Shown: positions 56,678 through 64,000 of the stretch, piece by piece
How the letters are laid out: each line of letters begins with the position of its first letter
How positions within the stretch are numbered: position 1 is the stretch's first letter
Origin: Georgenia subflava
Lineage (GTDB): Bacteria; Actinomycetota; Actinomycetes; Actinomycetales; Actinomycetaceae
Direction of reading: 5' to 3'
DNA: 64,000 bases
Assembly (NCBI RefSeq): GCF_009193155.1
Contig: NZ_VUKD01000001.1
Coordinates: 1,178,001 to 1,242,000 of the forward strand
The notes under the pieces: generated by a model
Told to the model about the DNA's origin: nothing
Database searches by the model: none
What the model saw: the letters and a program-made list of their open reading frames with translations, nothing else
Position numbers and translations under genes: made by a program

Positions 56678-58660
<1,983 letters not shown>

Positions 58661-58686
58661 TCCTCTAACTCCTGACGAGTGTCACG

Positions 58687-58725
58687 TGCATCAGATTCCC
58701 TCGAGTGATGCAGGACAGTGATGCA
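58687..58725 (-). promoter_or_regulatory. TGATGCA repeats upstream of the DUF255 gene
   Basis: TGCATCA (58687-58693), TGATGCA (58706-58712) and TGATGCA (58719-58725): one inverted and one direct copy within 39 bases, in the only AT-rich patch before the gene. A candidate operator. Confidence 0.45.
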
Positions 58726-58781
58726 TTGTTTTGCAGTGGGTCGCTCGGCGGCCCGGTGCCACCAGCCTAGGAGGCGGCCTC

Positions 58782-59066
58782 GTGGGCACGCGCCCTCAAC
58801 CGAAGCTGCTCGCTCAGGGCAAGCCGCGCATGCTCGGCGGCGCGACACGTGGTTGGCGGGTGCGGCTCTACGCACCCGGATCGGGCAGCAACAAGTACCA
58901 GGTGTACTTCAAGGCGCCGGCCGGCGAGGGCGAACCCTGGAAGCGCGTACTGCGGCGGGCTGCATCCGAGGAAGCGCGCTGGATCTTCGCGCAGGCCGAG
59001 GGTGCGCTGTCAGGCGCGCGCGTTGACGATCACTCGTGGAGATCGTCGTCTCGAATTTCCAGATAG
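58782..59066 (+). pseudogene. Truncated integrase-like N-terminal fragment
   Basis: Starting from GTG 58782 the frame reads KPRMLGGATRGWRVRLYAPGSGSNKYQVYFKAP and EEARWIFAQAEGAL, resembling the arm-binding N-terminus of phage or island tyrosine integrases. It stops at 59066 inside the 3' end of the opposite-strand ATPase gene, with no core catalytic domain. The remnant marks the left boundary of the atypical region. Confidence 0.5.
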
Positions 59067-61378
59067 GGCCTGAACGCGGGATGCACCCTGTAGCGAAGGG
59101 TACGACTTTCCGCAGTGCTATTACGCGATGCAACCCGCATTTTCCTCCTCGCCGCAGTCTCGCCTTCCACATACTCAAACTTCCCCTCAGCCAACTCCAC
59201 CCCCAAAAAGGAAGCCGCGACGAGCCAATCTCGGAGCTTTGCGGGCTCCGGAGCGCTGGCGAGTACCTCGCCCAAATCGTCCGCCGTGAGCGTGGCCCCG
59301 ACACCCGCGAACTCGTAGAGCAACTCTTCCAGGTTGATGTCCACCGATTCGCTCTCCACAATCAACGCCTCCATCGCGAAGCGCGAATACTCGCGCTCGG
59401 CGTAGGAAACATCCTGCGCTTCTACGGTCGAATGCCGTCGGTTTATTGCAGTGGTAAGCGCGGCGTTAGCGAAATAAACGAAGTCGCGCGGTCGGCGCAA
59501 TGCTCGCCAAAGGAAGTAGTCACGCGCAGGGAGCCCACGAACTTCTTTGCTGAACAACTCGTCCCACATCGACCCGTCTCCCGCGTTCCGCGCGTTCGCG
59601 GCATAGCGTTCCTCCAAGACGCGAACAAGAAGTTGTTCATCACCCCAGTCGACAGTCCGTGCACCGATCTTGTCCGGCTCGCGCGCGTAGGTTCGCACGA
59701 CGTCGAAGATGTCTGTTCTAATGAACAGTGCGAGCGTGGCTCGAAGCTGATGGGCCGCGCCGGACCGACTGAAGTCTTTCTCTATCTTCCCGGCGGTAAC
59801 AAGCAGCGAAAGGATAAATCGTGCGTTTCCTTCGAAATTTGTGCCGCGTTCCCAGTTTTTGTCTAGATTGTCAATTAGGATCGCTACCCGTTCGTGCTCG
59901 TGCAGCAGTTGTATCGTTAGCGTACGCAGCCGTGACAGTTCGTCGGAACGTATCGCCTTCGCAACCGCTGCGTGATCACTTGTTCCGTTTTCGCCGAGTT
60001 GAGTCATGACGCGGTCGACTACGCGCTCAAGACGCGCCGACAGGTCCTCGCCTTCCTCGATGTCCATCGCGCGAAGAAGGGAGCGCAAGTTGCTCAGCGC
60101 GCCCTGATCTGCCTGGGACAGCGCGCGCCCCTCGCTAAGTTCAAGCAATCGAAGTGCGATCTCGCTCTCAATGAGGTAAACCCAGGCCGTCATCAAGAAG
60201 TACTCGGCATGTGCTGGATTGCCGAATCTATTCAAAATAGATAGCAAGCCACCAAGCTCGTAGGAGGATGGCTTGATTGGCACCACAAGAACCTTGCGAT
60301 CGAGTGATAATTCATTACTAACCTGTGACATCGTCGCAGTCTTGCCAGTTCCCTTCCGTCCAGCGAAAACTGTTGCGGCGCCAGAGACAACCGCCGAAAA
60401 CTCGCTCGTCTGGATGAAGTACTTACCTAGATCTTCGAGTTCGTACTCGGCGACATACTGGCCAAACGACCGGAGGGGAAGTTCGATATCGAGTTCCAGC
60501 CGCCCTAGCCGCCGGTTGGTCCCTTTCGGCTTGGGCATCGTCTCGAGCCACGTCTTAACCTTCTGTTGCAGCGCTGCGGATGTGTCGTACTGGAAGAGCA
60601 TATCTCGATAGTCGAGAGGGCTTACGAATCCGCTTTGTACGACCATTAGCAGTGGCAACTCAAGGCCGTGAGCGAACCCTGCGAGAAAACTAGCGCGAGC
60701 ATTGTGCTCACGCGATCGCTTCCGTGTTTCGCCGAGCAGATGAAGAATGACCGCGCTTGACCGGTAGATCTCCCGTGCGTAGAACTCCAAAGGAGCGATC
60801 ATCAGGTCGTCACTAGATCCTAGGATCTTCAAGTGTGACTGTCGCTCGAGGAGGCTTTCGAGTGCCGTAGCTGGCGCAATCTTTATGGGCAGCGCCGGAG
60901 CAAACACAGCGTTCGCCTCGCGAGGTTTAGCTCCCGCGAGGATGGTTTCCGCTAGCGGCGGGGTGCTGGCGGGCGGAAATGCCGAGTACCGGGCAATAAG
61001 CTTCTCGGAATTGCCTCCATAATTGGTGCGGCCGATAGTGGAGAAAATCGCAACGTCGCTCCAAAGCCGTTCGGCGTCACCGTCGGTTTCGTCGAAAGCC
61101 AGCCATGTAGGCTTATTTAGGGCCACCGCATACCCCAACTCAAACAAGACGTTCGGGTTCATCGAACTGACTTCGGCTATCACGGAGGAGGAGGCGCGGA
61201 TACGCTCGGTGATGGTGTCGACCAGAAGTCGTCCGTCGATTTGCAAGTCTTCCCAGCCATCTGCCCGCTGGCCCCGAGTGTTCAAGCCGGCAATTGCTGC
61301 ACGCATCGTCTCGGCTCGCAGTGCGGGCTGCGAGCCGTAGGCAAAGAACGTCGGACCGGGTTTTGGCGCGGAAGTCAT
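59030..61378 (-). CDS. NDT/TIR-like plus P-loop NTPase protein (candidate STAND-type defence protein)
   Basis: A 782-residue protein with much lower GC than its surroundings. Residues 10-100 form a nucleoside deoxyribosyltransferase/TIR-like module with MNPNVLFELGYA (73-84), where E80 is the likely catalytic glutamate. Residues 180-250 form a second such module (YRSSAVILHLLG, HNARASFLAGFAHGLELPLLMV). A P-loop NTPase follows: Walker A GRKGTGKT (340-347) and Walker B VAILIDNLD (498-506), in the Sll1717-like style. A helical region with VHPAFRPYL ends it. NDT/TIR effectors fused to NTPases act in abortive infection by destroying NAD or nucleotides. The ATG has no clear ribosome site. Its 3' end overlaps the integrase remnant. 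Confidence 0.8.
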   Translation of the reverse strand: MTSAPKPGPTFFAYGSQPALRAETMRAAIAGLNTRGQRADGWEDLQIDGRLLVDTITERIRASSSVIAEVSSMNPNVLFELGYAVALNKPTWLAFDETDGDAERLWSDVAIFSTIGRTNYGGNSEKLIARYSAFPPASTPPLAETILAGAKPREANAVFAPALPIKIAPATALESLLERQSHLKILGSSDDLMIAPLEFYAREIYRSSAVILHLLGETRKRSREHNARASFLAGFAHGLELPLLMVVQSGFVSPLDYRDMLFQYDTSAALQQKVKTWLETMPKPKGTNRRLGRLELDIELPLRSFGQYVAEYELEDLGKYFIQTSEFSAVVSGAATVFAGRKGTGKTATMSQVSNELSLDRKVLVVPIKPSSYELGGLLSILNRFGNPAHAEYFLMTAWVYLIESEIALRLLELSEGRALSQADQGALSNLRSLLRAMDIEEGEDLSARLERVVDRVMTQLGENGTSDHAAVAKAIRSDELSRLRTLTIQLLHEHERVAILIDNLDKNWERGTNFEGNARFILSLLVTAGKIEKDFSRSGAAHQLRATLALFIRTDIFDVVRTYAREPDKIGARTVDWGDEQLLVRVLEERYAANARNAGDGSMWDELFSKEVRGLPARDYFLWRALRRPRDFVYFANAALTTAINRRHSTVEAQDVSYAEREYSRFAMEALIVESESVDINLEELLYEFAGVGATLTADDLGEVLASAPEPAKLRDWLVAASFLGVELAEGKFEYVEGETAARRKMRVASRNSTAESRTLRYRVHPAFRPYLEIRDDDLHE

Positions 61379-62098: not shown

Positions 62099-62596
62099 CT
62101 ATCGGGACCGCCCTGCAATGTCTGAACGCGCGAGACTGGTGAAGGCGTCAAGCTCATCGTAGAGCTCCTGTACCCCAGACGTTGGGCTGGTCTCGCAGAG
62201 GAGGATGCCCACCGCGACGTCGTCAGCGGTCGTGGCTATCCGCTCACTGGCGGCTGCGGCTGCCACGCTACCCACGAGGTAAACCTCAGCGGCCGCGTTC
62301 CGCACCGATTCCATCTGATCGTTGGCGAGCTGAACCGTGTCCCGCTGCGGGCTGCCCCGGGACTCGCAGGGCTCCGACGCGGCCAGGTCTGAGCCCGCAG
62401 CCTCGACGGCAGCGATCAGCCGGACATAGGCCGCCTGACGCTCGCTGCGCTCCATCCTGCGATCCTCGGCCGTCGACTGCAGGTGCGTACCGAACAGGCC
62501 TCCACTAACGCCAACGATCGAACCAAGTAGCGCCGCCCCGGCCGAGATCAGGGCGATGTTGGACTGCGAGCGATTCTTGCCGTGCACCGTCGTCAT
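62099..62596 (-). CDS. Membrane-anchored hypothetical protein of the island
   Basis: A 165-residue protein. A membrane helix at ~13-36 (IALISAGAALLGSIVGVSGGLFG) is followed by a helical, coiled-coil-like exported or cytoplasmic region (EDRRMERSERQAAYVRLIAAVEAAGSDLAAS, ANDQMESVRNAAAEVYLVGS). No family is recognised; similar small proteins occur on mobile elements. The ribosome site is weak. Confidence 0.6.
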   Translation of the reverse strand: MTTVHGKNRSQSNIALISAGAALLGSIVGVSGGLFGTHLQSTAEDRRMERSERQAAYVRLIAAVEAAGSDLAASEPCESRGSPQRDTVQLANDQMESVRNAAAEVYLVGSVAAAAASERIATTADDVAVGILLCETSPTSGVQELYDELDAFTSLARSDIAGRSR

Positions 62597-63563: not shown

Positions 63564-64000
63564 GGTCAAGTCCGCTGGGGTGGTGTACGAGGTTCGGCGT
63601 GATCCTTCGGGGGTTAGGCGCTGATGGCGCCGATGACGGGGCTGTCCTCCTCGATGGTCTCGGTGTCGATCAGGGTGAGGCGGGCCTTGGCCAGGGTCTC
63701 GAGGCCGAAGTAGCGGCGGCCCTCGGCCCACTCGTCGTGCTGCTCGGCGAGCACGGCGCCGACGAGGCGGATGATGCTGGTCCGGTCGGGGAAGATGCCG
63801 ACGACGTCGGTGCGGCGGCGGATCTCGCGGTTGAGACGCTCGTTGGGGTTGTTGGACCAGATCTGGCGCCACAGCTCCTTCGGGAAGCCGGTGAAGGCCA
63901 GGATGTCCCCGCGGGCCTCGTCGAGGTGGGCGTGGACGTCGGGCAGCTGGGCCGCTACGGCGTCGAGGAGCTTGTCGAACTGGGCGTGGACGTCCTTCGC
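63564..64000 (-). mobile_element. IS256-family insertion sequence (right part)
   Basis: The transposase C-terminus plus a terminal sequence. After the stop, the stretch GGTCAAGTCCGCTGGGGTGG at 63564-63583 resembles the terminal inverted repeat of actinobacterial IS256 elements. The other end lies outside the window, so neither the paired repeat nor the 8-bp target duplication can be checked. Confidence 0.7.
63614..64000 (-). CDS. IS256-family (Mutator) transposase, C-terminal part
   Basis: The last 128 residues of a transposase entering from the right edge. Diagnostic segments are LWRQIWSNNPNERLNREIRRRTDVVGIFPDR and RLVGAVLAEQHDEWAEGRRYFGLE, the conserved C-terminal signature of IS256 transposases, which use a DDE active site (the last acidic residue should be just upstream). 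The frame is intact to its TAA at 63616-63614. Confidence 0.93.
   Translation of the reverse strand, partial: AKDVHAQFDKLLDAVAAQLPDVHAHLDEARGDILAFTGFPKELWRQIWSNNPNERLNREIRRRTDVVGIFPDRTSIIRLVGAVLAEQHDEWAEGRRYFGLETLAKARLTLIDTETIEEDSPVIGAISA

Follow-up and report, generated by a model that had tools for sequence, protein, structure and literature searches.

Background

Proteins in which DRHyd or TIR domains are fused to STAND ATPases have already been described, and the available parts of the sources describe a TIR-class enzyme at the N-terminus followed by a STAND-type NTPase (PMC8195603, PMC7159879). According to the accessible part of PMC9503650, the TIR-DrHyd-SLOG class is built as a five-stranded Rossmannoid sandwich, whose active members act on N-glycosidic links by cleavage or transfer and whose inactive members are nucleotide-binding sensors. 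Swarozyc, with its DUF4062 domain, appears in the available text of PMC13174449 as a TIR-like NADase with distant similarity to nucleoside deoxyribosyltransferases (NDT), a conserved Glu and a role in abortive infection, in which it answers to the phage portal. A DNA-acting role of NDT domains in abortive infection has been proposed (PMC3710099, available part), and DS-41 is an anti-phage protein from DefensePredictor (PMC13092281, likewise in part). The subject of this work is a gene of Georgenia subflava, located at 59030-61378 (minus strand) of a 64,000-nucleotide stretch of contig NZ_VUKD01000001.1 (1,178,001 to 1,242,000 of the forward strand); this whole stretch is called the window, and its numbering is used unless another locus is named.

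The 782-amino acid (aa) product of the gene looks like an immune switch made of three parts: a domain that cuts base-sugar bonds, a look-alike of it devoid of the Glu, and an ATPase similar to the core of cell-death receptors of plants and animals. Its occurrence among bacteria is broad but patchy. We consider it probable that the protein acts as a single-gene anti-phage (abortive-infection) switch of TIR-NLR-like build. It shares the N-terminal TIR-class enzyme and the STAND-type NTPase with the known DRHyd/TIR-STAND fusions, but the available descriptions of these (PMC8195603, PMC7159879) do not include an Sll1717 ATPase preceded by one catalytic and one Glu-less module in tandem, and a search of open-licence papers found no account of the three-part NDT/Glu-less/Sll1717 architecture. 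The protein differs also from Swarozyc, as no match to DUF4062 was obtained with Pfam up to E 1.

Composition and conservation of the 782-aa protein

The gene starts with an ATG codon, and its parts are listed in Table 1. The earlier note on this DNA, made from the sequence alone, had pointed to four motifs and all of them are present: MNPNVLFELGYA with E80 (residues 73-84), HNARASFLAGFAHGLELPLLMV (residues 225-246), GRKGTGKT and ILIDNLD. The low guanine-plus-cytosine content that it reported was also recovered, with the bulk of the gene lying within the two lowest of the 64 1-kb bins of the window (0.579 for 59001-60000 and 0.566 for 60001-61000).

Residues 305-773 were assigned by NCBIfam to the Sll1717-family P-loop ATPases (NF047389) with 289.9 bits, far above the curated cut-off of 75, at E 4.1e-86 and with model positions 1-454 of 454 covered. 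The ATPase half is a member of this family by score; the model is confined to the ATPase and leaves both N-terminal modules uncovered. A 698-aa protein of enterobacterial plasmids also belongs to the family, but has the ATPase first (residues 12-475) and no NDT modules; it was seen at L118:1160-3256 (scanned) and L119:6013-8109, with either IS26 or a Tn3 transposase and a recombinase as neighbours. DS-41 (NF053860, DS41_1) has a distantly related ATPase start, matching residues 305-369, but the 48.9 bits obtained against a cut-off of 370 mean that the 782-aa protein is not a member.

Relatives were collected by scanning genomes with an alignment of eight rows and two search patterns, a DNLD-containing Walker B motif and a Glu motif. 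The scan gave 285 relatives, and the best 80 of them comprised 66 full-length uninterrupted, eight partial, four with a stop (located, in two of these, where the match ends) and two split sequences. The 66 full-length relatives were aligned with the window protein to give 67 rows, in which E80, V77, G82, G234, D256, the Walker A glycines and lysine and the DNLD motif were invariant, whereas N76 and Y14 were each kept in 66. The conservation of E80 might have been an artefact of the search motif and was therefore counted apart in the rows fetched by the Walker B pattern alone, where it was kept in 27 of 27. The score for NF047389, the invariance of E80, Walker A and DNLD, and the number of uninterrupted full-length relatives all place the protein beyond chance.

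Table 1. Features of the locus, with window coordinates
Feature	Coordinates	Strand	Basis
Whole gene, 782 aa: NDT/TIR-like, degenerate NDT-like and Sll1717-family ATPase parts	59030..61378	-	Open reading frame, NCBIfam, structure model
Module 1, residues 10-133, NDT/DrHyd (TIR-related) domain, predicted catalytic	60980..61351	-	PF05014 sub-threshold, DNPH1/NDT profile matches, model topology
Glu80 codon, catalytic-type glutamate	61139..61141	-	67/67 rows; over DNPH1 Glu in alignment
Module 2, residues 157-279, ten-element beta-alpha order as in module 1, no Glu; invariant G234, D256	60542..60910	-	Model and 67-row alignment
AAA+/STAND-like ATPase with putative C-terminal winged helix (from model and matches), residues 305-775	59054..60466	-	
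Walker A GRKGTGKT, residues 340-347	60338..60361	-	G340, G343, G345, K346 in 67/67
Walker B ILIDNLD, residues 500-506	59861..59881	-	DNLD in 67/67; motif also one of two search patterns
Truncated integrase, residues 1-78 of about 468	58782..59012	+	88% identity to G005 island protein (468 aa), 73% to G006 and G007
Conserved gene, 5' end the likely integration site	56678..58660	-	First codons duplicated in 3/8 congeners
Mutator-family transposase, continues past window end	63614..64000 (L097:7614-8924)	-	PF00872, E 1.2e-94

Module 1, an NDT/TIR-like domain

Profile matches and the structure model support module 1 as an NDT/TIR-like domain carrying a catalytic-type Glu, and catalysis is predicted for it. 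PF05014 (Nuc_deoxyrib_tr) matched the module at E 2e-4 with 21.9 bits, and with 24.7 bits in a genome-wide search, both below the gathering score of 28.8. A profile of 61 N-terminal regions matched solved DNPH1/Rcl N-hydrolases with a best E of 8.9e-5, followed by nucleoside deoxyribosyltransferases (six rows at E 0.008-0.009, the rest weaker). The FELGYA motif with Glu80 was aligned over YELG of DNPH1, the Glu of which we take to be the catalytic residue. Among the PADLOC models, the TIR effector PDLC00733 matched residues 54-97 (E 1.4e-4) and mad8 matched the protein at E 0.005. In the predicted structure strands and helices alternate in both modules; strand 3 of module 1 covers residues 65-69, E80 lies inside the next helix (75-86), and the fifth strand amounts to two residues in DSSP. 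The joining of an effector-like domain to a P-loop ATPase, as read in the earlier note, is thus borne out by profiles and model, and the database support for this domain sets the protein apart from a generic AAA protein.

Module 2, a Glu-less look-alike

The elements of module 2 follow the order of module 1 in the predicted structure, with start offsets of 142-155 residues. The column equivalent to E80 is occupied by V (29 rows), I (17), L (12), M (3) and F (3), so that it is hydrophobic in at least 64 of the 67 rows. Pfam run on 51 module-2 sequences gave nothing at E < 0.03. Whether module 2 arose as a copy of module 1 was examined at the sequence level by profile comparison, which gave no proof: the score of 18.9 (19.0 with a tighter slice) was not significant, as reversed module 2 reached 20.1 and three of eight ATPase slices reached 22.0-22.2, with further controls at 9.4-16.1 (12 column permutations) and 9.7-14.7 (eight reversed ATPase slices). 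A PDB profile search with module 2 returned a designed protein at E 5e-5, with no single stretch passing, and the plant RPS4 TIR at E 1.3; neither was used as evidence. It is the predicted structure that supports the kinship of the two modules, and of the "second related module" claimed before, the shared topology stood whereas the sequence comparison did not reach significance.

The hydrophobic residue at the Glu position would fit a pair of one catalytic and one sensor module, a division which agrees with that between active and inactive members of the TIR-DrHyd-SLOG class (PMC9503650, available part). A bolder and tentative reading is that module 2 is a pseudo-enzyme in which the NDT/TIR fold has become a built-in nucleotide receptor; sensor, switch and effector would then reside in one chain, replacing a C-terminal repeat sensor, and such single-chain immune receptors would form a class not described before, which occurs in 18 labelled bacterial groups and in some cases together with the membrane protein 8xMP.

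The ATPase half

Pfam AAA_16 gave a sub-threshold match to the protein. The fold-match list of the whole model was filled by the ATPase and comprised ORC/Cdc6, archaeal ATPases, CED-4, plant NLRs and the RdrA ring; ORC2, Cdc6 and TnsC were among the top rows, and the CED-4 and NLR rows were tied with ORC (Z within 1). The modelled P-loop ATPase fold is therefore supported as fitting STAND and ORC proteins about equally. One row, that of RPP1, a plant TIR-NLR with leucine-rich repeats (LRR), spanned model residues 4-774, but the root-mean-square deviation of 20.5 over 414 residues indicates a different domain arrangement; the 782-aa protein has no LRR and has the extra module 2. C-terminal sensor repeats of the STAND superstructure are absent from the model, in which the last helix (767-773 of 782) is followed by no further domain. 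The fold matches to the STAND-type design proposed in the earlier note are thus shared about equally with ORC.

The ORC2, Cdc6 and TnsC rows would also suit a DNA-bound, ORC/TnsC-like platform on which module 1, acting like DNPH1 or NDT enzymes, strips bases from invading DNA or nucleotides and does not cut NAD+. Among solved enzymes, the deoxynucleotide N-hydrolase DNPH1 is the nearest in profile searches, and DNA-acting NDT domains have been proposed for abortive infection (PMC3710099, available part). The tie of the CED-4 and NLR rows with the ORC rows speaks against such a platform, which we regard as quite unlikely.

Distribution of the family

In a tree of the 67 rows 18 groups were labelled, two rows being without a label; wholesale transfer between phyla was considered and was not supported, as 19 label changes were counted in a quick tree against a minimum of 17. 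Matches to 133 plasmid records were found by tblastn, 13 of them covering at least 80% of the query, and two of the eight plasmid homologues examined were interrupted. A homologue with 49% identity on a Rhodococcus qingshengii plasmid (L009:11968-14361) is split into two open reading frames (ORFs) within one frame, and the stretch around it carries TIR, DUF4062 and WD40 genes. No match was obtained by tblastn in phage records or by scanning genome contigs with the single protein as query. Ten homologue genomes searched whole had one full copy each, one of them with an extra ATPase-only match.

The gene was absent from all eight congeners and from all 28 genomes of the same family, and was present in one of 22 genomes of the same order. 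In a phylum sample six of 396 genomes matched, the own one included, and among the matches listed only that of the window's genome was full length. The gene is thus not core in its genus. The similarity to DNPH1 and NDT would agree with a house-cleaning enzyme of the nucleotide pool devoid of any defence role, but its absence from congeners, the plasmid copies, the adjoining truncated integrase and the fusion to an AAA+/STAND-like ATPase make such a function very improbable.

Likely integration site and mobile setting

The stop codon of the gene lies 17 bases past the end of a match to a truncated integrase, and the truncated integrase reported in the earlier note is confirmed, matching residues 1-78 of a 468-aa integrase-like protein of a congener. 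The broken resolvase reported with it was rejected, as PF00239 searched up to E 10 in the own genome gave no place near the gene; the element on that side is the Mutator-family transposase.

The truncated integrase adjoins the 5' end of a conserved gene present in nine of nine genomes of the genus (own included), the product of which we take to be a thioredoxin-domain, YyaL/DUF255-like protein. The first codons of this gene occur twice in G005, G006 and G007 (17.1, 19.6 and 18.9 kb apart, respectively), the second copy of G006 being weaker (49% identity, one stop). Each of the three islands has an integrase-like ORF of 468-491 aa at the matching end, two of which were matched by Pfam Phage_integrase below the cut-off and the third not at all. 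An MmeI-type IIG restriction enzyme is encoded in the island of G007 together with a helicase, and type I HsdM, HsdS and HsdR in that of G005, so that restriction-modification was found in both same-site islands scanned; the mostly unscanned island of G006 has ORFs like those of G005 in length and start. The other five congeners had neither a second 5'-end copy nor an integrase match. The 56678-59012 region, at the 5' end of the conserved gene, is an apparent integration hotspot for 17-20 kb islands with variable cargo.

The own genome has no second copy of this 5' end, which together with the truncated integrase and the nearby transposase could indicate a decayed island in which the gene persists as cargo but has lost its expression or function. 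The 782-aa frame and its invariant residues are, however, intact, and we hold this explanation to be extremely unlikely.

Two further ORFs were observed in this part of the genome. A 375-aa ORF beside the transposase (L097:8882-10009, approximately 64882-66009 in window numbering) has no Pfam or NCBIfam match and contains an RNPYSHGG stretch, presumably reminiscent of HEPN nucleases. A 165-aa ORF at 62099-62596 has one likely membrane helix (by eye) and no Pfam match.

Neighbours of homologues

Neighbouring ORFs were compared with PADLOC in two sets. The actinobacterial set consisted of 141 ORFs, none above 900 aa, taken at 20 loci, and its control of 121 of 151 picked ORFs from 16 of 20 regions; 43 families were hit against 10 in the control, a modest excess. 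The set from 60 other loci, three of which are also actinobacterial, took per side at most one ORF of at least 150 aa from the three nearest and had no matched control; it comprised 103 of 104 ORFs, one being dropped as part of the gene itself, and type IIG restriction (3), PDC-S37 (2) and Hhe (2) were among the families listed. These tallies name families and not members, for the first 25 of 43 and of 95, and come from a simple ORF caller with some spurious ORFs; they lend weak support to a defence context. The three type IIG matches may coincide with a related ORF family that was seen beside four Poribacteria loci.

A small membrane protein, identified by Pfam as 8xMP in three of three tested, formed the family that recurred most often among 966 neighbour ORFs. 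It lies within about 0.7 kb of the homologue in eight of 88 loci (four actinobacteria, three cyanobacteria and one Anaerolineae bin), convergent in four and on the same strand in four, and was not found at the other 80 loci (some with short flanks), elsewhere among 139 loci or in the own genome. Any 8xMP was present in two of 100 actinobacterial genomes. The association is unlikely to be due to chance, yet it concerns a minority of loci, half of them convergent. A literature search on 8xMP found nothing relevant. At L027:6529-7373 the 8xMP gene next to the homologue is overlapped by a TIR gene of ThsB-like type, matched by Pfam below its cut-off, and the two could possibly form a separate two-gene signalling system.

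This recurrence raises the idea of a Thoeris-like scheme, in which module 1 makes a diffusible nucleotide signal (e.g. a form of cyclic ADP-ribose) and a distinct membrane effector, for example 8xMP, is opened by it. Besides the many loci without 8xMP, the four convergent pairs cannot share an operon, the three cyanobacterial loci are alike, and the hidden Markov model of 8xMP was built from seven of the same eight neighbours; 8xMP may also be just common near defence genes, and in L027 its overlap is with a separate ThsB-like TIR gene. Such signalling appears rather unlikely.

Proposed mechanism

The defence role put forward in the earlier note has gained indirect support from the restriction-modification cargo at the same site, the restriction-type neighbours, the 8xMP association and the absence from congeners. 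As an abortive-infection switch, the protein would be held inactive by its ATPase in the resting state. An infection cue may reach the protein as a nucleotide ligand of module 2, or the ATPase may sense it directly, which comes into question because no repeat sensor follows this domain. The cue would lead to nucleotide exchange in the ATPase and to oligomerisation, by which the module-1 domains would be gathered; Glu80 would then cut N-glycosidic bonds of NAD+ or nucleotides, and the infected cell would no longer support the phage. Module 2, as a non-catalytic relative, would sense the ligand or restrain module 1. By analogy with TIR and DUF4062 enzymes (PMC13174449, available part), NAD+ is the likeliest guess for the substrate; deoxynucleotides are possible, since DNPH1 is the nearest solved relative.

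Conclusions

The combination of a TIR-class enzyme with a STAND ATPase is a design common to bacterial, plant and animal cell-death immunity. The family of the 782-aa protein is a widespread, unnamed version of it, which has no repeat sensor and has a second, Glu-less module of like predicted topology. If module 2 senses a nucleotide, the family would provide an example of an effector fold turned receptor, a question that mutations of E80, D256 and K346 would open to direct test.
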